Positions 37 through 31,652 of a stretch of DNA of 34,674 bases are shown piece after piece. The translations under genes and the position numbers were made by a program. The stretch lies in assembly GCA_017436865.1 (NCBI GenBank), contig JAFSCH010000042.1:1-34674 (forward strand), written 5' to 3'. Origin of the DNA: Lachnospiraceae bacterium (GTDB lineage: Bacteria; Bacillota; Clostridia; Lachnospirales; Lachnospiraceae). A model generated the notes under the pieces. It was not told the origin of the DNA, made no database searches, and saw only the letters and a list, made by a program, of their open reading frames with translations. Each line of letters starts with the position of its first letter. Position 1 is the stretch's first letter.

Positions 37-165
37 TTTTTTCCTCTGCGATAAAGTTTTTCTTTTATTTTACCTTATCACAATGAAAATGGCTAAAATT
101 AAGCACATTTATTGCGAATTATTTTTACCTGTCAGAGCTGTATTTTGGCACAGGCTTGTGGAAGT

Positions 166-447
166 ATGAGAGAAGATTATCTTACTAATATATTTGGAAG
201 GATGCAAAGTGTAAGACCAGAGAAGTGGTATATAGATGGAGAAACAAAAGGAAGATACAGCTATGATTTAGATGTTACCGAGATTATAGATAGAAAAAAA
301 GTGTCAAGTATAGAACCAGAAACATTTCACATAGAGTGCATGAAGTGTATTAATATTAGTGGAAGAAAATGGCATTTGCGGGAACGGTGTGAAGAGAATA
401 TTTTTAGTGAAAAATGTGTAGAGGATAAGCCAGATGAAGTGGAATGA
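166..447 (+). CDS. Small cysteine-containing protein, first gene of the SMC-ATPase operon
   Basis: I do not recognise this protein. From the ATG at 166 it would be 93 aa; an in-frame TTG at 112 would add 18 residues including a CQSC pair. Neither start has a convincing ribosome site, and an in-frame stop lies at 100. The C-terminal part has a CMKC pair and two further cysteines (HIECMKC, RERC, SEKC), which could bind zinc. Its last 14 bases overlap the start of the next gene, so translation is probably coupled and the two should work together. In Lamassu/ABC-three-component loci the first gene is normally a larger effector such as a nuclease. This short product may be a reduced component or the remnant of one. 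That is inference from position only. Confidence 0.5.
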   Translation: MREDYLTNIFGRMQSVRPEKWYIDGETKGRYSYDLDVTEIIDRKKVSSIEPETFHIECMKCINISGRKWHLRERCEENIFSEKCVEDKPDEVE

Positions 448-1093
448 GTGTTTTGAAAAATATAATTATAGTTCATTAATTGAGCAGGATACAAATGGTA
501 ATCGCAAGCTTTTGATTCCTATGTTTGAGGAAGATGGGCAGATACCGGCAGAGTTGGAAGAAGTGTACTTGAGTGCGTTGACGGATGAATTAATTGTAAT
601 CATCCGTCTGAAAGAGGAAATGAACGTAGCCGATGTGTGTGCAAAGTGGGACAGCAGGATTATGGCTTTTATAAACTTTGGTCATTTACCCGGCGAAAAT
701 AATGGGAAAGAGCATATGCGTAAGATTAGATATAATGTGGTTCAAATATTATTGCATGAGCATGAGGTAGATAAAAGGTTAGAGAAGGATACGTCAATTT
801 CGCGTAAAATCTTTTTACGCTGTGATGAGGATAATGAATTAGACAGTGAGAATCGGTTACTGTTGCCATTTTGGTATGATGAATTTGATAGCATTATAAT
901 AGACCCGGAAAGGGAAATAAAGTTAAAAGAGCTCTTACCAGTGGGAGAAGAAACAGATTTCCTAAGAAAAAGTCGCGTGAAGATTCGCAAGAAAAAAAAT
1001 AGTAATGAGGAACAGTTAAACTTTAGCAAAGAGGAATCGGATGTACTGAAAGGATGGCTTGAGACGGATGAAACTGAAGAAGATAACAATTGA
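434..1093 (+). CDS. Middle component of an SMC/ABC-ATPase defence-like system (putative)
   Basis: A 219-aa acidic protein without signal peptide or membrane segment. It lies between a small upstream gene (14-base overlap) and a zinc-hook ABC ATPase (26-base overlap). A GAGGAT ribosome site precedes the ATG. This position, the size near 200 aa and the companion ATPase match the 'middle component' of ABC-three-component systems and LmuC of Lamassu, small proteins thought to bridge effector and ATPase. Residues around 125-150 (SRKIFLRCDEDNELDSENR) followed by LLLPFWYDEFD resemble segments I associate loosely with such components, but I cannot confirm family membership by eye. The C-terminus is highly charged and may be disordered. 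Function is inferred from context. Confidence 0.6.
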   Translation: MKWNECFEKYNYSSLIEQDTNGNRKLLIPMFEEDGQIPAELEEVYLSALTDELIVIIRLKEEMNVADVCAKWDSRIMAFINFGHLPGENNGKEHMRKIRYNVVQILLHEHEVDKRLEKDTSISRKIFLRCDEDNELDSENRLLLPFWYDEFDSIIIDPEREIKLKELLPVGEETDFLRKSRVKIRKKKNSNEEQLNFSKEESDVLKGWLETDETEEDNN

Positions 1094-3482
1094 AAATTTT
1101 CGAGGTTTTTCAGGAAGACATGAGTTTGATTTTGAGGAAAAGGCATTAATTATGCTTACAGCGCCAAATGGAAATGGGAAAACCTCATTATTGGATGCCA
1201 TTGAATGGTGTTTGACGGGAAATATTAAACGTATTCAGGATGTATACCAAAGACGTAATACGAATGCAACAGAGAGAAAAGAAAATAGAAGTGCGGTATT
1301 AAAAAATGAAAACCACTTAACAGATAAGACAGAAGTTATCCTTGAAATAAAGAATGATACAGAGGAGTATACAATTAAACGTACCCAGAGCAGGGATACA
1401 TTAGAGGATAAGGGAAAGGTATATGTAAATCAGTTGAGTGGGGAGCAGGCAGAAGGAAAATTGGAAAGTATGACGGATTTGAAAAACTTTTACAAATATC
1501 ATTTTTGTGATATGCAGAAAACATTCAATTTTCTGACAAAAAGCAGAGATGATATGGAGGTGGAGTTTGCAGATTTTTCATCTGATTATTCGGAAGCAGA
1601 GAATGTTGTGCATAACCTAGAACTGTATATTAAAGATTTAGAAACTTATATTGAAAACAGTAATCAGGAAAAAGCAAAAGTGGAGAAGGATATAAAGAAT
1701 TGTGAGGAAGCAATTGAAAAGTATAAGTCATCAGCAGAGATACTTCCATACAATTCCCAGATACTATTTGCAGGAGAACAGACAGATATAAAAAACATGA
1801 CATTAGAGCAGTTACAGGAGCAATTGCAGGCATTGTATCGGTGTGGCTATACCCATGCATATGAACTGTTAGGATATAAGCAGAATAGTGCATCAGCAGA
1901 AAAGGTAAGAAAAGAGTTGGAAGTTATAAAGAAGGAGCTTTCAGAACAGGAAGAACATATTAAAGAGACCTTGAAAAAGGAGGCAAATAAAGCAGATGTT
2001 CGTACAGCGGCAGAGCGTGAGTATAAGAAATATAGTGAGATGAAGCTGACGAAAGAGAGTTTGGCGGGAAATAGAGAGGAATTATTTAAACTTAATCATG
2101 ATAATTTCACGCAGGATTACTGGAAAGAGAGTAGTGAGAGATTAGAGGAGTTAGGAAAAGCTCAAAAGACATTGCAAAAAGAGCTTAAGACTTTAAATAA
2201 GGGAAACGAAATACTGGATATTCTTACGTCTATCACAAATGGAAAAGAAAGTCTGACAGCATATCGTAAGGAAATGCAGAAGCACGGGGATGGTATTACA
2301 GTACAGTGTCCTGTTTGTGGTTCAGAACAGTTTGGTATAATAGATGAACATGAGATAACCAAGCAGGCACAGGAATATCAGGCTGAGCATAAGGAGCTTA
2401 TTGAACAGAAGAAAAAGGACGAAGAAAAACTGAAAAAAGATGTACAGAAAATCGAGGAAGAACAATTAAGCAAGGCAGAAGCTGTTTTAAGAGAAGCAGT
2501 AGAGAATGCAAAAGAAAAGTTTGAGAGCTTAATTTCTCTGTATAATGCAACAAAGGTGTATTTTGATTCACTTCAAACATTACAAAAGGTGGATAAAGAC
2601 ATATTTTCATCTGAGAAGATGTTGATAATGAGTAATGTAGATGAGGAAATCAAACATACAGACGAGAAAATACTTTCACAAGAAAAGATAGCTGAATTGG
2701 ATACAGAAGTGCAAAAAATACTGCAGAATGTAAATTATTCGGATAAGGAAGAACTGTCTCCAGAGAGTCTGTTAGAAGAAGTAGCACGAAGAGCTGAAAA
2801 TGCACCAACAGAAGTACAATATGATGAAAAATTGTTATTTGGAAAGATTAGCTCTGTTCGTAGTTATATAAGCAATACAGAATATGTACAGGCTACACAG
2901 AAGCATGCGGATGCAAAGAAGAAAACTGCTCAAATCGAGGGTGATATTGTTGGATGGAACAAGCTTATAGATAAAGCGAATAAAAGAAAGAATAAAATAG
3001 CAACGGCAAAGGATGAATTAAAGGAGGAAGAGTATAATCAAGTTGGACCATATCTATTTAAGTTCTTCTGCAAGTTATCCAGAGATGTGAGGATTGGCGG
3101 AATGGATATTAAGTTTACTGATGGGAAAAAGGTGGCTCTGTTAAATGACAAGAATAGTTCGCTTTTGAATATTTTCAGTGATGGTCAGCTGAGTGTATTT
3201 ATGTTGTCTTATTTTCTCGGAAACATTTTTCGCTTGAAGGATGTAGAGAAAATGCCGATATATTTTATAGATGATATTACTAGCTGTATGGATGACATTA
3301 ATATGCTGGCATTTATTGATCTTTTGAAGTATCAACTTTTAGATTCTGGCAGTGCGATGAAACAGATATTTTTTGCTACCTGCGACAACAGAATAGAGGA
3401 TTTATTGGAATATAAAATCAAAAACTGTGGAATCGCTTATAAAAAGCTGGATGCAAAAGCTTTTCAGCAGAGTAGGGTATAA
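1068..3482 (+). CDS. SMC/RecN-like ABC ATPase with zinc hook (LmuB/ABC-3C type)
   Basis: An 804-aa chromosome-segregation-type ATPase. The N-terminus starts MKLKKITIENFRGF and carries a Walker A loop, APNGNGKTS, at residues 32-40. Long coiled coils follow, broken by a CPVC zinc-hook motif at 414-417. The C-terminal half-ATPase has an ABC signature FSDGQLS (703-709) and a Walker B IYFIDDITS (731-739), where the usual catalytic Glu is Asp736, as often seen in RecF/RloC-like families. The ATG at 1068 is preferred over the TTG at 1059 because AAAGGATGG lies at a workable distance. SMC-like proteins of this build recognise foreign or damaged DNA in Lamassu, Wadjet and ABC-three-component immunity. 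Here it closes an overlapping three-gene operon next to a recombinase. An ordinary SbcC/RecN repair role is less likely because the SbcD and other repair partners are absent. Confidence 0.8.
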   Translation: MKLKKITIENFRGFSGRHEFDFEEKALIMLTAPNGNGKTSLLDAIEWCLTGNIKRIQDVYQRRNTNATERKENRSAVLKNENHLTDKTEVILEIKNDTEEYTIKRTQSRDTLEDKGKVYVNQLSGEQAEGKLESMTDLKNFYKYHFCDMQKTFNFLTKSRDDMEVEFADFSSDYSEAENVVHNLELYIKDLETYIENSNQEKAKVEKDIKNCEEAIEKYKSSAEILPYNSQILFAGEQTDIKNMTLEQLQEQLQALYRCGYTHAYELLGYKQNSASAEKVRKELEVIKKELSEQEEHIKETLKKEANKADVRTAAEREYKKYSEMKLTKESLAGNREELFKLNHDNFTQDYWKESSERLEELGKAQKTLQKELKTLNKGNEILDILTSITNGKESLTAYRKEMQKHGDGITVQCPVCGSEQFGIIDEHEITKQAQEYQAEHKELIEQKKKDEEKLKKDVQKIEEEQLSKAEAVLREAVENAKEKFESLISLYNATKVYFDSLQTLQKVDKDIFSSEKMLIMSNVDEEIKHTDEKILSQEKIAELDTEVQKILQNVNYSDKEELSPESLLEEVARRAENAPTEVQYDEKLLFGKISSVRSYISNTEYVQATQKHADAKKKTAQIEGDIVGWNKLIDKANKRKNKIATAKDELKEEEYNQVGPYLFKFFCKLSRDVRIGGMDIKFTDGKKVALLNDKNSSLLNIFSDGQLSVFMLSYFLGNIFRLKDVEKMPIYFIDDITSCMDDINMLAFIDLLKYQLLDSGSAMKQIFFATCDNRIEDLLEYKIKNCGIAYKKLDAKAFQQSRV

Positions 3483-3590
3483 GCAGATAGCACGATAACC
3501 GTTTTTCAACAGATAAGAGAGTATAGATGAAATGATATACTATAATTAAGAAGTTTTATGTCATTTTTCTATACAAAGGAGGCTGTTGAA

Positions 3591-4520
3591 ATGGAGCTAA
3601 ATGAGGAAATGCGCAAGTATCTGCAATATTGTAAGTGTCAAAAGGAGCTTGATGGTAAGACGATAAGAGCTTATCAGACGGACTTGGAGCAATTTATTTT
3701 GTTTTTACAAGAGAATGGTGAAGTAGTAAATAAAGAAACAGTAAATTTATATCTGATAGATATTCATGCCAGATATAAGCAGAAGACAGTAAAAAGAAAA
3801 ATTGCCAGTGTAAAAGCTTTTTTTGGCTATTTAGAGGATGAAGAGATTATTGAACTGAATCCTATGCATAGGATAAAGACGAAATTTAAAGAAGAGCAGG
3901 TGCTGCCCAAAATTGTGCCAAGGAATGTGATAGAACAGCTATTGAAGCATCTTTATATGAAAAATGCTTCGCAGAGTTGTTCAGATTGGCAGAAGAAACT
4001 TATTTTAAGAGATATAGCTGTGATTGAAATGTTGTTTGCAACAGGAATACGCATTTCAGAGCTGTGTCAATTAAAAAGCAAATTTTTTGATATGGAAGAG
4101 GGTGTATTGTGTATACAGGGGAAAGGAGGAAAAGAACGTTACCTGCAAATTGGTAATATGGATGTGCTGAATATATTAACTGAATATAGAAAACAGTATA
4201 GAGATGTAATAGAAAAACATGGTTTTTTCTTCGTGAACCGATATGGACAGCCCCTGTCAGAGCAATCTGCCAGACGTATGCTCCATAAATACGCAAGAGA
4301 TATAAAGGCAGACATATCTATTACGCCTCATATGCTTCGTCATTCCTTTGCGACATACTTGATGGAAGAAGAGGTAAATATTCGATATATACAGAAGATG
4401 TTAGGGCATTCTTCCATAACAACAACTCAGATTTATACATATGTTGCAACGGAAAAGGAAAGAGAACTACTTAGGACAAGACACCCTAGAAATAAGATGC
4501 AAATTGGAAATGTTAAATGA
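3591..4520 (+). CDS. XerC/XerD-family tyrosine recombinase, candidate invertase
   Basis: A 309-aa site-specific recombinase with an N-terminal SAM-like core-binding domain (about 5-85) and a C-terminal catalytic domain. The full catalytic set is visible: Arg154 in TGIRISEL, Lys in GKGGKER (178-181), HMLR (His247, Arg250), LGH (His273) and nucleophile Tyr282 in TQIYTYV. It should be active. The ATG at 3591 has a perfect AAAGGAGG 7 bases upstream, so I prefer it to an earlier start at 3558. The enzyme is an orphan Xer, too far from housekeeping neighbours to be assumed chromosomal XerC. Its gene ends 6 bases before a 30-bp inverted repeat whose partner is 4.2 kb away, the arrangement of phase-variation recombinases such as RecV of Clostridioides difficile. 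That it inverts this segment is inference. Confidence 0.93.
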
Positions 4521-4526
4521 AGATTC

Positions 4527-4556
4527 GGTACTGATAATTGGAAATTATCGGGCTGA
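4527..4556 (+). repeat. Left inverted repeat of the putative invertible segment
   Basis: Thirty bases that are the exact reverse complement of 8715-8744. The centre is a dyad, GATAATT-GGA-AATTATC (4533-4549), like the paired arm sites bound by tyrosine recombinases, with asymmetric outer bases GGTACT and GGGCTGA. It sits 6 bases after the recombinase stop codon. Confidence 0.9.
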
Positions 4557-4595
4557 TGAGAGATTGGGATATTATCATGATAGGTGTGGTGAAAA

Positions 4596-6926
4596 ATGAT
4601 AGATTTTAAATTTGTATGTCGTGAAGAAGAACTTAATTTTGCTCAAGAAGCATTACAGGAAAAAAAGCTTACAATTTATTATTATTTTAGTAATAGTGGT
4701 TTGTCTCATTATTTAAAAAAATTAAGTATTAATTTAAATACCTGTACTGAAATATGTTTCTACGTCAATTGTGCTAAAAACCAAAATATAGCTGTTCAAA
4801 TAGCAACACAAATTATTTCAGGATTTGATAAAAATAAAATGCGTAAATATACGCAGGATGCAGGTGAAGTGGTAAAAAAAATTATAGAATCATTAGTGTC
4901 ATCAATAGACATTATTCCTATTGTGAATGTAGGGGAAATGATATCCGCGTTTACATCGGCAATAAAAAATACACTTGACACAGATATAGAACATTTATCG
5001 GATTATAAGCTTGAAAAAGCTATAATATCCATGTTTAAACAAATTACTAAACAGGAAAAAATAAATAATATTTATATTTTGATTGATGATGCAAGTGCTT
5101 TGAAACCAGAGTCCTTAGATTTTTTGGCTAAGATTATGGATTATAAATTAATAAAGCTTTTGGTTACAATACCAAATAATCATATTAATTTAGGAATAGA
5201 AAACTTATCAAAAATTTGCACAAATGAATTTGAAACATATGAAATACAAAAAACGTTTGAACGCCCTGATAATAATATGATAAGAGGATTATATAAATGC
5301 TATAATTGCAATTACGATGAGAAATATTTAAATGTTTTTGAAAGATATGAAAGAAATATTCATATTATCATGTCGTATATTCGTGGATTTCATATGAATT
5401 TTATGCAATTAGATAAAAATTCTACTCGCATATTAAAAATTTTGTTAATCTTAAATACATCTATAGATAGTATAACCTTATCCAATATATACATTCGAAC
5501 TTTTCACTTACCTGTTAAAACTGAATATAAGGACTTTTGGGCGCTTATTAATAAAATGAACGAACAAGGATTTTTAATTGTAGATCAACATGATTGTATA
5601 CATTTAAATCATAATATAGTAAGTGAAGAGGAAATAAAAATTACATTAATTGAACGTTTATCTATTTCGCGTGATATTGTTGATTCATTTGAAACATGCA
5701 AAGAGCAATTAACTATTCCTCATTTAAAATTTGCAATACATAATTTAGACAAAGACTATAATAGACGTAAATCATATATTATGTTGTTATTAGATAAGCA
5801 AAAAATAAATGGACAAATAGAACAGCAATATCTAGATATGCTTTTTTATTTAGATAATAAGAAGGATTTAGTAAAGATATGTTCTATGTATTACAATTTG
5901 CAAGTATATGATGTCCCATTCTTAAGACTCAAACAGCATATAGAGTTTTTAGAAGAAAGAGAGTGTATGGACCTACTAGCCTTACTACAAGAACGTTTAC
6001 ATAAAGATGATTATTGTCAAAAACTTCGTAACCTACTTCATAGTAGTACCAATATAAATGAAAGATGCCTATTGCTAGCAATATTATTTACTGCATTGTT
6101 TAATAATGGAGAAAATGAAGAGTGTTTAAAAATATTATATGATACAAATTATGAGTTCTATTATAAAAAATTTAGAGTGTCAAGTTATTATCATTTTTTG
6201 CTTAGAAATGTTAGTTACTATATAGAAGATGTTGAAGAAGGAATTCAAAACTATAATTTTTGTCTATCAAAATTTAAAAATTGCGATCCAGTTAATTATA
6301 ATAGAACATTATCAAATTATATTGGATATCTAATGAAGCAAGCATCGAATAAACATGCATTAAAAAGGCTACATGATAAAATTGATGAAGTTGAAACTAT
6401 TTTGGAGTTTAATGATCAAAAGTATTTATATTTAAATATTAACTATGGAATTTATTTAATGCTTGAAACAGATGCAGATCCAACACCATATTTTGATTCG
6501 ATTGTATTTAATACAGGAACAACAGAGACACCACATATTTATGCCAAAATTAATCAAGCATTATATGTTGCTAAAAATAATCCCGCCAAGGCACTTTCTT
6601 GCCTTGACGAAATTTTTTATGATTTGATTTACGAATCAAATGTAATACCAACAAAAGTTTTCTATAAAATAAATAGATTATTGGTTGAATATATGAACGG
6701 CATAAATAATATAGAATTATTAGAAGAAATTAAATCAGAACCTTTACGAGGTGATGAAAAATATACCAATAAATTATATTCCTTTTATGCATATCGGTTT
6801 AAAAAGAAGATAAAATATAAGCCTAATGATTGGAAAATATGCTTTCTCCCTGGATATATTTTTTATCACGGCTTTGATGCAGAGTTACTTATATCAAGTT
6901 TAGCAACACCCAGTTCAAGAATATAA
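4596..6926 (+). CDS. STAND-like NTPase with degenerate P-loop and helical repeat C-terminus
   Basis: A 776-aa protein, very rich in Asn, Ile, Lys and Tyr. The start FVCREEELNFAQEAL (residues 6-20) is the typical entry of a signal-transduction (STAND/AAA_16) ATPase. Where the P-loop should be (27-41) it reads IYYYFSNSGLSHYL, lacking the Gly-Lys-Thr/Ser. A Walker-B-like IYILIDDA follows (159-166). A winged-helix-like region and a long all-helical C-terminal half of tetratricopeptide type come next; this is judged by eye. ATP binding is therefore doubtful and the protein may act as a scaffold or sensor. AGGTGTGGTGA precedes the ATG. The last 61 bases overlap the convergent ATP-grasp gene tail to tail. 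It lies inside the putative invertible segment, currently downstream of the recombinase gene. Role unknown; defence or regulation are guesses. Confidence 0.75.
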   Translation: MIDFKFVCREEELNFAQEALQEKKLTIYYYFSNSGLSHYLKKLSINLNTCTEICFYVNCAKNQNIAVQIATQIISGFDKNKMRKYTQDAGEVVKKIIESLVSSIDIIPIVNVGEMISAFTSAIKNTLDTDIEHLSDYKLEKAIISMFKQITKQEKINNIYILIDDASALKPESLDFLAKIMDYKLIKLLVTIPNNHINLGIENLSKICTNEFETYEIQKTFERPDNNMIRGLYKCYNCNYDEKYLNVFERYERNIHIIMSYIRGFHMNFMQLDKNSTRILKILLILNTSIDSITLSNIYIRTFHLPVKTEYKDFWALINKMNEQGFLIVDQHDCIHLNHNIVSEEEIKITLIERLSISRDIVDSFETCKEQLTIPHLKFAIHNLDKDYNRRKSYIMLLLDKQKINGQIEQQYLDMLFYLDNKKDLVKICSMYYNLQVYDVPFLRLKQHIEFLEERECMDLLALLQERLHKDDYCQKLRNLLHSSTNINERCLLLAILFTALFNNGENEECLKILYDTNYEFYYKKFRVSSYYHFLLRNVSYYIEDVEEGIQNYNFCLSKFKNCDPVNYNRTLSNYIGYLMKQASNKHALKRLHDKIDEVETILEFNDQKYLYLNINYGIYLMLETDADPTPYFDSIVFNTGTTETPHIYAKINQALYVAKNNPAKALSCLDEIFYDLIYESNVIPTKVFYKINRLLVEYMNGINNIELLEEIKSEPLRGDEKYTNKLYSFYAYRFKKKIKYKPNDWKICFLPGYIFYHGFDAELLISSLATPSSRI

Positions 6927-7864
6927 TTTATTAGTTCTTCATAATTCTTAAAATGACTATTAAGGAAACTATTTACAAAACCACCACGTATACCTAGATT
7001 CATCAAAACATTCACTTCTAGGAAATATGGTGTAAAACTTTCTTCCTCTAATATAAAATCAATTCTTGCATAATCACAAGGCTGCATCGCAGAATAGTAT
7101 TTTTGCGCAATATGCATTAACTGTTTATTTAGAGTAGAATCGGGGCTTTCAAACCGTTTCATTCCAGAATCGGCAAATCTTTTTTGGGAATGTGTCATAA
7201 TATTTCCTGTTTTGTCAGATATAGTATAGTGTGGAGCTGCGATTAACGGATTTCCAGATATAGTATTTAGTAAGGAAACACCATAACATAGTCCTTTTAT
7301 GTATTTTTCAACAATAACATCTAGATTTTGTTGAAAATAATATTCAGATTTCTTTATTGCATCTTCCCAAGTATAGCAAAGAGAACTTTCATCAATATTT
7401 ATTGATGCACTACCAAAACGTGGTTTCACAAAATATGGACCAGAAAAAGGTGGTATTTTACATAACGGATATTCTTTGGAGCAGACCACCCAAGGTGCAG
7501 TATTTATCCTTAAATGTTCAGCAAGTTGCTTTGATAAACTTTTATCTTCAACAAGTGCTCGGACATTTGGGGTTGCACCTATGTATTTAATATTGTAATA
7601 TTCGCATAGAGATTGAACAAAGATTTCACTATTTCTAAAGCCTAATCTGTTATACACAGACCAAACTAAGTCATATTTGTTATGGTTTTCTATTAGGAAT
7701 TCTATGTTACTTGCAGTGTCTATATTATATTTTGCCTTTTTTAATATTTCAACAATTTTCCAATGGTAAGTCTCTGCATAAAACTTTTCTTCTTGGGTTG
7801 AGGGTGGATTTAATATGATACCATTTGTAGGTGCAAATTGAGCTAAAAATAAGATATTAGGCAT
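6866..7864 (-). CDS. ATP-grasp ligase, D-Ala-D-Ala ligase-like
   Basis: A 332-aa ATP-grasp enzyme that should join a carboxylate to an amine or similar nucleophile using ATP. Visible features are a Rossmann-like N-terminal domain (MPNILFLAQFAP), the nucleotide-binding strand PYFVKPRFGSAS with Lys147, VIVEKYIKG (183-191), and the metal-binding set RIDF (Asp269) and FLEVNV (Glu283, Asn285). This fits the D-alanine-D-alanine ligase fold rather than carbamoyl-phosphate synthase. The ATG at 7864 has AAAGGAG 5 bases upstream; an alternative ATG at 7885 overlaps the upstream stop. It is co-transcribed with the methyltransferase 20 bases upstream. No murein genes are nearby, so a peptide or small-molecule modification role is more likely than cell-wall synthesis, but the substrate is unknown. 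Confidence 0.85.
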   Translation of the reverse strand: MPNILFLAQFAPTNGIILNPPSTQEEKFYAETYHWKIVEILKKAKYNIDTASNIEFLIENHNKYDLVWSVYNRLGFRNSEIFVQSLCEYYNIKYIGATPNVRALVEDKSLSKQLAEHLRINTAPWVVCSKEYPLCKIPPFSGPYFVKPRFGSASINIDESSLCYTWEDAIKKSEYYFQQNLDVIVEKYIKGLCYGVSLLNTISGNPLIAAPHYTISDKTGNIMTHSQKRFADSGMKRFESPDSTLNKQLMHIAQKYYSAMQPCDYARIDFILEEESFTPYFLEVNVLMNLGIRGGFVNSFLNSHFKNYEELINYILELGVAKLDISNSASKP

Positions 7865-7884
7865 TTCTACTCCTTTCTTTGACA

Positions 7885-8640
7885 TTAAATATGTCCAATA
7901 TAACAGCAGGTATTATTTTGTAATACCAATATTCCGTTTTGACAGTGTGATTCAAAATAGTACGACAAGTCTTCCATATATTTTTTATAATTTCCTTCAT
8001 TTCTATTTGGGCAATATGAAGCTGATTGATGTAGTCCTAAAAAACTTTCTTTATTAAATGTTATTGGATTAAAAAAACTTTTTGTGTCATAATTCCCGTT
8101 GAAAAAATTTTGATATTCAGCATTATTTTTGGCTCCGCGCATTCCTTTTGAAGAGCCAGAAAAATCAGAACAATATTTTTTGCTAATTAAATCAATTTCT
8201 TGTACCATTTTATCTTCTTCATCACGACAATTCCAAATCAAGATTACTTGTCCATTGGGTTTCAGAATACGTTGACATTCTTTTTTAAATGCCTCTCTAT
8301 TAAACCAATGAAAAGCTTGCGCGACAGTAACAAAATCTATGCACTGGTCATGTAATGTTGTGTCTTCTGCAGTTGCATTAATAGATATAAAATTGTTTGT
8401 ATGAGCTAGATTTAATTCAGCAACTTGACGCATATCATTGTTTGGCTCAACTGCATAAACTTGTCCACATATATCTAAAAGTTTTTTTGTAAAAATTCCA
8501 GTTCCTGAACCAATATCAGCAACATTAGAAGATTCATTTATGCCAATCTTAGAAGATAAGTATGAAAATAGTTCTTTTGGATATGTAGGGCGATATTTAT
8601 CGTAGATATCTGCAAGCCCATTGAATATGTTTTCATTCAT
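7885..8640 (-). CDS. Class I SAM-dependent methyltransferase
   Basis: A 251-aa methyltransferase of the Methyltransf_11/25 type. Motif I, VADIGSGTGIF, is at residues 40-50, the acidic residue after strand 2 is in YAVEPN (about 62-67), and the post-motif AQAFHWF near residue 110 is typical of small-molecule methyltransferases related to ubiquinone and tetracenomycin enzymes. AAGGAGG lies just upstream of the ATG. It is the first gene of the minus-strand unit in the putative invertible segment, followed by the ATP-grasp ligase. The pair looks like a small tailoring or biosynthetic module. The leader between its ATG and the right inverted repeat is only 74 bases and has no convincing promoter, so expression may depend on segment orientation. 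Substrate unknown. Confidence 0.88.
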   Translation of the reverse strand: MNENIFNGLADIYDKYRPTYPKELFSYLSSKIGINESSNVADIGSGTGIFTKKLLDICGQVYAVEPNNDMRQVAELNLAHTNNFISINATAEDTTLHDQCIDFVTVAQAFHWFNREAFKKECQRILKPNGQVILIWNCRDEEDKMVQEIDLISKKYCSDFSGSSKGMRGAKNNAEYQNFFNGNYDTKSFFNPITFNKESFLGLHQSASYCPNRNEGNYKKYMEDLSYYFESHCQNGILVLQNNTCCYIGHI

Positions 8641-8714
8641 ATCTACAACCTCCTTGTATAATGGTTAAATTGTTATAAGAACGTGTAAATTTTTGTTATT
8701 ATTGGTCGTCTTTT

Positions 8715-8744
8715 TCAGCCCGATAATTTCCAATTATCAGTACC
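8715..8744 (-). repeat. Right inverted repeat of the putative invertible segment
   Basis: Exact reverse complement of 4527-4556 over 30 bases; similarity then drops off in both directions. Same GATAATT-N3-AATTATC core. It lies 74 bases upstream of the methyltransferase start codon. Confidence 0.9.
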
Positions 8745-8837
8745 AAAGCTTTTGAGAAATACTTATATACTGAGAGGACATAAGGTTAAAAAAGGGATAA
8801 TAAGAAAGAAGATTTTTAGGTAAAAAGGTGGGGCAAC

Positions 8838-22362: not shown

Positions 22363-22402
22363 CATGGATATTTCAGGAAGAAAGAAGTATCCATGTTTTT
22401 TT
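22363..22402 (+). terminator. Intrinsic terminator of the membrane-protein operon
   Basis: CATGGATATTTC (22363-22374) pairs with GAAGTATCCATG (22384-22395), a 12-bp stem with one G-U pair, followed by seven T (22396-22402). Confidence 0.9.
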
Positions 22403-22406
22403 GAAT

Positions 22407-22496
22407 ATTAGGAAATTGCTGTTACGTAGTGGTAGTTAGACAAGAATTTCGAAAGAAATTCTTGCCAAAGTGCGTGCGCTGGCACGCACTATTTTT
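22407..22496 (+). repeat. Two-hairpin repeat element, copy A
   Basis: It begins ATTAGGAAATTGCTG and shares GTAGTGGTAGTTA-type sequence with copies at 31471 and 31564. Hairpin 1: CAAGAATTTC-GAAA-GAAATTCTTG (22441-22464). Hairpin 2: AGTGCGTGC-GCTG-GCACGCACT (22469-22490), then five T. Stem sequences differ from the other copies but pairing is kept, as is the GCTG loop. It sits directly after the terminator of the preceding operon. Confidence 0.8.
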
Positions 22497-31432: not shown

Positions 31433-31466
31433 GGTTGAGGTAAATTTTTATCTCAACCTATTTTTT
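31433..31466 (+). terminator. Intrinsic terminator of rpmE
   Basis: GGTTGAG (31433-31439) pairs with CTCAACC (31452-31458) around an A/T-rich loop, followed by TATTTTTT. Confidence 0.85.
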
Positions 31467-31470
31467 AAAT

Positions 31471-31559
31471 ATTAGAAAATTGCTGTAACATAGTGGTAGT
31501 TAATAAAGAATTTGCGGAGCAAATTCTTTGAGTGATTGCTGCTGGGCAATCACTTTTTT
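31471..31559 (+). repeat. Two-hairpin repeat element, copy B
   Basis: Same 5' part as copy C (AAATTGCTGTAACATAG, then TGGTAGTTAATAAAG). Hairpin 1: AAAGAATTTGC-GGA-GCAAATTCTTT (31505-31529). Hairpin 2: AGTGATTGCT-GCTG-GGCAATCACT (31531-31554), then a T-run. It is tandem with copy C, period 93 bases, directly after the rpmE terminator. Confidence 0.85.
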
Positions 31560-31563
31560 ATGT

Positions 31564-31652
31564 AATAGGAAATTGCTGTAACATAGTGGTAGTTAATAAA
31601 GAATTTACGAAGTAAATTCTTTGAGTGATTGCCGCTGGGCAATCACTTTTTT
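31564..31652 (+). repeat. Two-hairpin repeat element, copy C
   Basis: Hairpin 1: AAAGAATTTAC-GAA-GTAAATTCTTT (31598-31622), with an A-U pair where copy B has G-C. Hairpin 2: AGTGATTGCC-GCTG-GGCAATCACT (31624-31647), with C-G where copy B has U-G, then a T-run. It ends 17 bases before the DUF1385 start codon. Confidence 0.85.

Follow-up and report, generated by a model that had tools for sequence, protein, structure and literature searches.

A putative invertible two-state gene cassette beside a Xer-type tyrosine recombinase in a Lachnospiraceae bacterium

The 34,674-nt contig JAFSCH010000042.1 of a Lachnospiraceae bacterium (GenBank assembly GCA_017436865.1), referred to below as the window, carries on its plus strand a gene for a Xer-type tyrosine recombinase, the proposed invertase (3591–4520), which is followed by an almost wholly coding 4.2-kb segment (4527–8744) bounded by inverted repeats. 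A repeat search of the window listed 10 inverted pairs, among them the perfect 30-nt repeat 4527–4556/8715–8744 that encloses this segment. The full repeat arms (4520–4556/8715–8751) extend over 37 nt at 95%, with the perfect core inside, and the second-longest pair (35 nt) is complementary to 77% only. An earlier note, made from the sequence alone, had described the two repeats as exact reverse complements, placed the first one six bases past the recombinase stop and seen a GATAATT-N3-AATTATC dyad in each copy. These observations hold: the stop codon ends at 4520, six bases from the left repeat and 12 from the site core, and the dyad is better written GATAAT-TGGAA-ATTATC. Both repeats are proposed recombination sites, the left one (plus strand) with its core at 4533–4549 and the right one (minus strand) with the same spacer in inverse orientation at 8722–8738. 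A search for GATAATT-N3-AATTATC-N-GGCTG with zero mismatches gave two matches in the 169-contig assembly, which are the two repeats.

The longest open reading frame of the recombinase starts at 3558, and translation probably begins at the ATG at 3591, which lies behind AAAGGAGG. The protein matches Pfam Phage_integrase (7.7e-40) and falls below the NCBIfam cut-offs of both the XerC and the XerD model (239.9 versus 335.15 and 238.1 versus 329.6 bits). As the earlier note had stated, its catalytic residues are all present: R155, K179, H248, R251, H274 and Y283 are invariant in 23 aligned recombinase sequences, the window's included, and this set (R, K, H-x-x-R, H, Y) is what we take to be the catalytic residues of the enzyme. 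Within the segment, two units face each other, with starts at the distances from their own repeats that had been noted before. Unit A (plus strand, 4596–6926) begins 39 bases inward of the left repeat and encodes a 776-amino-acid (aa) STAND-like protein with a degenerate P-loop. Unit B (minus strand) begins 74 bases inward of the right repeat; its first gene (8640–7885) encodes an S-adenosylmethionine-dependent methyltransferase (Pfam Methyltransf_11, 8.8e-19) and its second (7885–6866) an ATP-grasp enzyme resembling D-Ala-D-Ala ligase (Pfam Dala_Dala_lig_C, 1.2e-10; phmmer matches to solved D-Ala-D-Ala ligases, best 5.3e-12). The 3' ends of the two units overlap by 61 nt, and the reading frames of the recombinase and of all three cassette genes are open.

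Unit A is proposed to be a sensor/effector arm by its likeness to other cassettes described below. The label NTPase given to it in the earlier note finds no support: no Pfam, PADLOC or NCBIfam model matches the protein at E ≤ 0.01, and its would-be Walker A motif, YFSNSGLSHYL, lacks GK[ST]. A low-confidence structure model (mean predicted local distance difference test score 62, three sequences) shows an alpha/beta N-terminus and a helical C-terminal part. Locus L068, a cassette of the same type, encodes a 57% identical homologue. The 776-aa protein occurs in one of 37 other genomes of the genus (G034) and was found in none of the 393 other genomes of the family sample.

Among 144 related genomes searched, we found a group of recombinases 45–49% identical to that of the window, compared with ∼35% for XerC/D-like proteins. 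The recombinase profile matches 53 of 397 family genomes, counting that of the window. In 398 genomes sampled across the phylum it matched, at E ≤ 1e-70, the genome of the window and none of the 397 others. Relatives with 36–43% identity are encoded on Streptococcus, Aliarcobacter and Paenibacillus plasmids, so the distribution of the recombinase is patchy rather than confined; a scan of named genomes gave a single distant match (25%). In a tree, the enzyme of the window, other family members and those from Aliarcobacter, Streptococcus salivarius and phage form a clade set against four Xer-like rows with support 96/96, a result that long branches caution against reading firmly. The other family members of this clade appear to be Lachnospiraceae-like. 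The Paenibacillus enzyme falls on the Xer side, and its repeat departs from the site consensus. On a phage-plasmid-like contig (L155; ParB, nearby tail-fibre match), a recombinase relative lies beside an inverted site pair, and contig L160 holds a STAND-like/ATP-grasp cassette between inverted sites. In two loci (L065, 10754–10762; L064, 14595–14603, recombinase-oriented) the recombinase falls into two frames at a nine-T run, a break shared by G126 and G114, which belong to different genera of one family; it could reflect slippage control or shared decay.

The site motif was derived from repeats found motif-free in five loci (the window, L040, L041, L046 and L062), and its core is the palindromic GATAAT-N5-RTTATC, which the left repeat of the window fits. 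We compared 84 recombinase loci, the window included, in five of which the recombinase is partial or broken. A near site, defined as having at most one mismatch and lying −20 to +260 from the recombinase stop, is present in 49 of the 84. In the alignment of these 49 sites the A/G position splits 26/23 and the spacer is free; the uniformity of the arms is partly due to selection, and the new information lies in the A/G position and the free spacer. Identical-core pairs 0.6–9 kb apart are inverted in 29 cases (26 of 84 loci) versus one direct. The 5-nt spacer is equal within each pair and different between most loci, and two cassettes of one genome (G126) differ in it. Sites without a recombinase in the stretch examined also follow two small helix-turn-helix-like genes in L073, L079 and L069; the first two contigs end 59 and 106 nt past the site, and in L069 a recombinase match lies ∼8.5 kb off on the same contig. 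These sites hint at further switches acting in trans.

In this bacterial order, we catalogued 35 paired-site segments, promoter-poor coding cassettes of 1.9–7.0 kb. The two cores of a pair are identical in 33 of them, and L046 and L118 each have a one-base difference. Strictly inward genes (at least 120 aa) start from both sites in 34 of the 35, that is, the layout is convergent, and the 3' ends of the opposed arms overlap in 20 of these 34 and come within 30 nt of each other in 28. Cassettes were annotated by family search for part of the proteins and by sequence clusters for the rest (L106, L119 and L125 are unannotated), and many STAND/AAA labels rest on Pfam matches below the cut-off. Where annotation was possible, one arm is usually a sensor/effector (STAND-like, TIR, SIR2/ThsA or pentapeptide) and the opposite arm an enzyme (ATP-grasp, radical SAM, methyltransferase, pyridoxal phosphate-dependent or glycosyltransferase). 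Families that recur do so with the same partners. Weakly TPR-like proteins face an ATP-grasp in 4 of 4 cases, and pentapeptide proteins face an ATP-grasp/radical-SAM protein in 4 of 5, the fifth having a radical-SAM protein. The other recurring pairs are a STAND-like protein opposite a serine hydroxymethyltransferase (SHMT)-like protein plus dehydrogenase (2 of 2); an AAA/STAND-like protein opposite a glycosyltransferase (2 of 2) or a carbamoyltransferase (2 of 2); and SIR2-STALD opposite TIR (2 of 2, L062 and L118). ATP-grasp proteins of one sequence cluster are present in 13 of the 35 segments. The SIR2-STALD proteins match ThsA models at 1.4e-103 and 1.1e-60, and the one at 1.4e-103 also matches a solved ThsA at 4.9e-57; the ThsB models (1.8e-9 and 2.4e-12) rank behind PDC-S66, which makes the ThsB label less sure. 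By these matches, with ThsA and a TIR ThsB both recognizable, the two arms are a Thoeris-like pair. Since both are of immunity type, the enzyme/sensor rule is not strict, and the arms of L069 mix protein types.

Inversion between such sites is visible in homologous plasmid loci. Two copies of the locus are present in the Streptococcus equinus plasmid record CP020439.2 at a distance of 185,448 bp. Their flanks are 99.95–99.99% identical and the 2.07 kb separating the sites is inverted; reversing the segment computationally makes the copies colinear over 8,002 bp at 99.975%. The distance is about one unit length of its relatives (164–190 kb), so this record is probably an untrimmed circle. Likewise, plasmids pACRY43158 and pM830MA of Aliarcobacter cryaerophilus encode the same recombinase protein and have 3.46 kb inverted between 17-nt sites (AATAAT-AGGAT-ATTATA, two bases off the consensus). 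Their flanks are 100% (2,285 bp) and 99.87% (5,525 bp) identical, and with the segment turned round they are colinear over 10,300 bp at 99.913%. In pM830MA (L192, 1937–4407) two frames, of 368 and 464 aa, take the place of the 823-aa arm, which there lies on the recombinase-distal side.

Draft assemblies point the same way. In four genomes (G178, G444, G476 and G114) the paired flank contigs stop at the same base after 19–23 shared nt, and a de Bruijn assembler should produce such twin ends only when both junctions are present. For G379 and G025 the stretch common to the flank contigs is exactly 127 nt, perhaps no more than the assembler's k-mer over a long repeat, which makes these two cases weaker than the four short ones; in G346 a 3.5-kb contig consists of little more than the segment. 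Of the 84 recombinase contigs, 22 break off no more than 300 bp past the gene and 3 no more than 300 bp ahead of it, where ∼1.4 would be expected. Homologous cassettes are also found either way round with respect to the recombinase, the ATP-grasp gene being near it in L041 and L130 and its partner near it in L124 and L065. Two sets of candidates were not counted: the C44/C12 spacer match in G009, where the C12 site is alone and deep inside a long contig, and G214 and G435, whose flank contigs end on different bases.

A gene-carrying segment bounded by inverted repeats could also be a transposable element with its terminal inverted repeats. We regard this as very improbable: the recombinase lies outside the segment, the spacer is matched within loci and different between them, no target duplication is seen by eye outside the repeats, and in the homologues identical flanks surround a segment that is inverted, not absent.

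Promoters and terminators were scanned in 34 cassettes (contig L149 left out; in five cassettes without a recombinase, near and far were taken as left and right). Inward promoters scoring at least 9 were located beyond the far site in 7 of 34 and beyond the near site in 2 of 34, at a shuffled rate of 0.041; at a score of at least 10 the counts are 5 and 1 (shuffled 0.015), and at least 8, 8 and 6 (shuffled 0.066). In most cassettes this score reveals a strong promoter on neither side. Just inside the sites (within 70 nt), inward promoters are not enriched, with scores of at least 9 in 2 of 70 ends and of at least 10 in none of 70; by these counts, taken of inward promoters, and by its almost wholly coding segment, the locus is unlike a promoter inverton of the RecV/Mpi type, whose invertases the earlier note had cited. 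Terminators, by our own definition, occur on 9 of 34 near flanks (shuffled 0.007). The family probably follows a scheme of a single promoter outside the segment and a pair of arms that have no strong one. The site itself was also considered as a −10 element (z 1.9 on both sides), which we do not take as evidence.

These data suggest the following model. The recombinase would bind both sites at their palindromic GATAAT/ATTATC arms, and recombination across the matching 5-nt spacer would invert the intervening 4.2 kb. The inward-facing units A and B would lack strong promoters of their own, transcription would enter from one fixed side outside the cassette, and the orientation would select either unit A, the STAND-like protein, or unit B, the methyltransferase plus ATP-grasp pair, for expression. 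Given the overlapping 3' ends, whichever unit is transcribed should also yield RNA antisense to the other, silent one. We consider it highly probable that 4527–8744 is such an invertible two-state cassette, with fixed outside transcription choosing unit A or B. Inversion is near certain for the family and very likely for the window; exclusive expression of the arms is likely. We infer that the neighbouring recombinase carries out the inversion, that the strain of the window undergoes it and that only one unit is expressed at a time, and likewise which side would drive expression in the window. Of the switch put forward in the earlier note, the invertible segment with opposed units is borne out by the inverted homologues, the twin contig ends, the excess of inverted pairs and the convergent layout.

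Several observations weigh against this model. One cassette (L040) is not convergent, 19 of the 40 loci whose available downstream sequence reaches 7 kb or more show no identical-core inverted pair, and four loci (L068, L069, L148 and L150) have paired sites and no recombinase match in the stretch examined. Terminator-like hairpins occur on 4 of 34 far flanks as well. A promoter split over the repeat, with GATAAT in the site as −10 and the −35 outside, is no more frequent than in shuffled sequence (2.18 observed versus 2.56, 49 sites). In the window, the near flank scores 3.3 and the far flank 3.8 by the promoter measure used above, values that denote no strong promoter, and the search for a terminator separating the recombinase from unit A found none. 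The far-side candidate (TTAACC-16-TATAAG, minus strand, 8762–8789), outside the segment and directed inward, is not above background; it would drive unit B in the assembled orientation. A second weak candidate (TTTACC-16-TATTAT, minus strand, 8824–8797) belongs to a pattern with 2 matches in the region versus 2.6 in shuffles. With a convincing promoter on neither flank, read-through from the recombinase has room in the window, and the unit adjacent to it might be expressed from the upstream ATPase–recombinase operon, with the far unit silent. The 12 bases between stop and core, the missing terminator and the lack of a plus-strand promoter match from 4177 to unit A all fit this idea, and it was also the reading of the earlier note, which had the recombinase-side unit switched on. 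In the relatives, however, 9 of 34 near flanks carry a terminator and strong promoters lie mostly on the far side, and in L090, L105 and the upstream L065 cassette the segment precedes the 5' end of the recombinase gene, so that no transcript running on from that gene could enter it. As put in the earlier note, this part of the proposal lacks support, and we regard the read-through reading as rather unlikely.

The opposite orientation was seen in homologous loci only, none of them from the strain of the window. The comparison of orientation in related genomes that the earlier note had suggested thus gave flipped segments in homologous plasmid loci and no flipped copy of the exact segment of the window, for whose strain there is one assembly, and the contig runs unbroken through both sites. 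This too counts against the model, and would suit a locked relic in which repeats and recombinase are left over and no flipping now takes place, as would the lack of a third site copy in the assembly, hence of an alternative junction. Against a relic stand the repeat, perfect over 30 nt, the retained catalytic residues and the open reading frames, and we find it improbable.

Gene pairs also vary between constant sites. Five plasmid records of the S. salivarius group (four S. salivarius, one S. equinus) have a common recombinase, flanks and sites and contain three gene pairs, namely polyprenyl synthetase/unknown protein, SHMT-like/STAND-TPR and unknown/methyltransferase; identity among the three types ends 26–29 nt from the outer core edge. 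In Aliarcobacter faecis pAFAEC, a GNAT/methyltransferase pair lies between the same sites as an AAA-like protein/ATP-grasp pair in A. cryaerophilus. Hence the pairs are swapped as units. Cassette exchange might then be the chief function, pdif-like or by recombinase-mediated cassette exchange, with inversion a side reaction and the units self-expressed, a view to which both plasmid groups and the duplicated arm of L047, with its third, direct site, lend weight. Such exchange needs neither convergence (34 of 35), 3' overlaps (20 of 34) and recurring partner families nor outside-enriched promoters and recombinase-side terminators, and we consider it unlikely as the main role. Locus L047 (8698–15744, recombinase-oriented) has three sites, two direct and one inverted, a transposase-like gene inside and a pentapeptide arm doubled as a 1,978-nt perfect inverted duplication; it is possibly an intermediate of cassette gain.

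Upstream of the recombinase and outside the segment, the window carries an operon (112–3482) of a small protein, a 219-aa protein and an SMC/ABC-type ATPase resembling LmuB/ABC-3C (plus strand, 1059–3482; PADLOC LmuB 2e-42, Pfam AAA_23 7.2e-13). As the contig begins at base 1, a further gene of this operon may be cut off. The L068 cassette likewise lies behind an ABC-3C operon (MComp1), whose ATPase matches that of the window weakly. Elsewhere in the window (31454–31639 and 22390–22482) there is a 93-nt repeat with a tandem copy (88%) and a distant copy (61%).

Repeats bounding a segment with a recombinase nearby make the locus a putative inverton in the broad sense. The Mu G and P1 C segments (Gin, Cin) and Salmonella Hin have a fixed outside promoter and invertible alternatives in opposite orientation, of which one set is expressed at a time. 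The gene layout is the same here, and transcription from outside would be too, with outside promoters in the relatives and weak candidates in the window. Gin, Cin and Hin are serine recombinases that switch related tail-fibre or flagellin alternatives, whereas here the enzyme is a Xer-type tyrosine recombinase and the two gene sets are unrelated. On the phage contig L155, a recombinase relative and an inverted site pair lie beside tail-fibre-like genes, as in Mu and P1. PMC12529663 lists the P1 C segment among its references and PMC8987985 covers exchange between Hin and phage enzymes. RecV of Clostridioides difficile and Mpi-type promoter invertons (PMC5386303, PMC11892184) likewise combine a tyrosine recombinase, inverted repeats and phase variation. 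The segments that flip are short, about 200–250 bp in two group-139 examples of PMC11892184. Unlike these, all 35 catalogued segments are kilobase-sized coding cassettes.

MBA and UU376 are surface-antigen genes of one genus, Ureaplasma. According to the abstract of PMC3047005, DNA inversion at specific repeats alternates these two partner genes, much as proposed here; that abstract mentions no family of interchangeable cassettes. Acinetobacter pdif modules are likewise gene modules bounded by Xer sites and subject to shuffling; they depend on host XerC/XerD and are described as mobility modules in abstracts on them. Here, by contrast, most loci have an adjacent recombinase, palindromic arms, a pair-shared 5-nt spacer and convergent units, and the core GATAAT-N5-RTTATC differs from the dif consensus. 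Integron gene cassettes have directly repeated sites, unlike the identical-core pairs described above (29 inverted versus 1 direct). Thoeris normally needs ThsA and ThsB together; in L062 and L118 the ThsA and TIR genes occupy opposite arms of an invertible segment. The literature searched (titles and the starts of abstracts, with few subscription papers) contained no description of this locus family.

The enzyme/sensor split recurs in unrelated cassettes, which suggests a functional link between the arms, and we lean towards immunity as the main role of the family. A more speculative and rather unlikely idea is that of a portable immune cell-type switch, in which each cassette would hold the two halves of one circuit, an enzyme producing or altering a small molecule or peptide and a sensor/effector responding to it. 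Inversion would prevent their joint expression, making each cell either maker or responder, and the halves would coexist just briefly, over the few generations that follow a flip. The 5-nt spacer would be an address that keeps the cassettes of one genome apart, and the paired sites would allow natural exchange of whole circuits. If the two-state model holds, bacterial, plasmid and phage loci would choose between two unrelated gene programmes by means of one recombinase type, and several of these programmes have the look of immunity modules, one case being a Thoeris-like pair whose members lie in opposite arms of the switch. Such loci are easily missed, as draft assemblies often break at the sites (22 of 84). 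Why an enzyme and a putative sensor should be placed so as to preclude easy co-expression would become a testable question. Some defence systems would then be phase-variable by design, and a genome sequence would display one of their two states.

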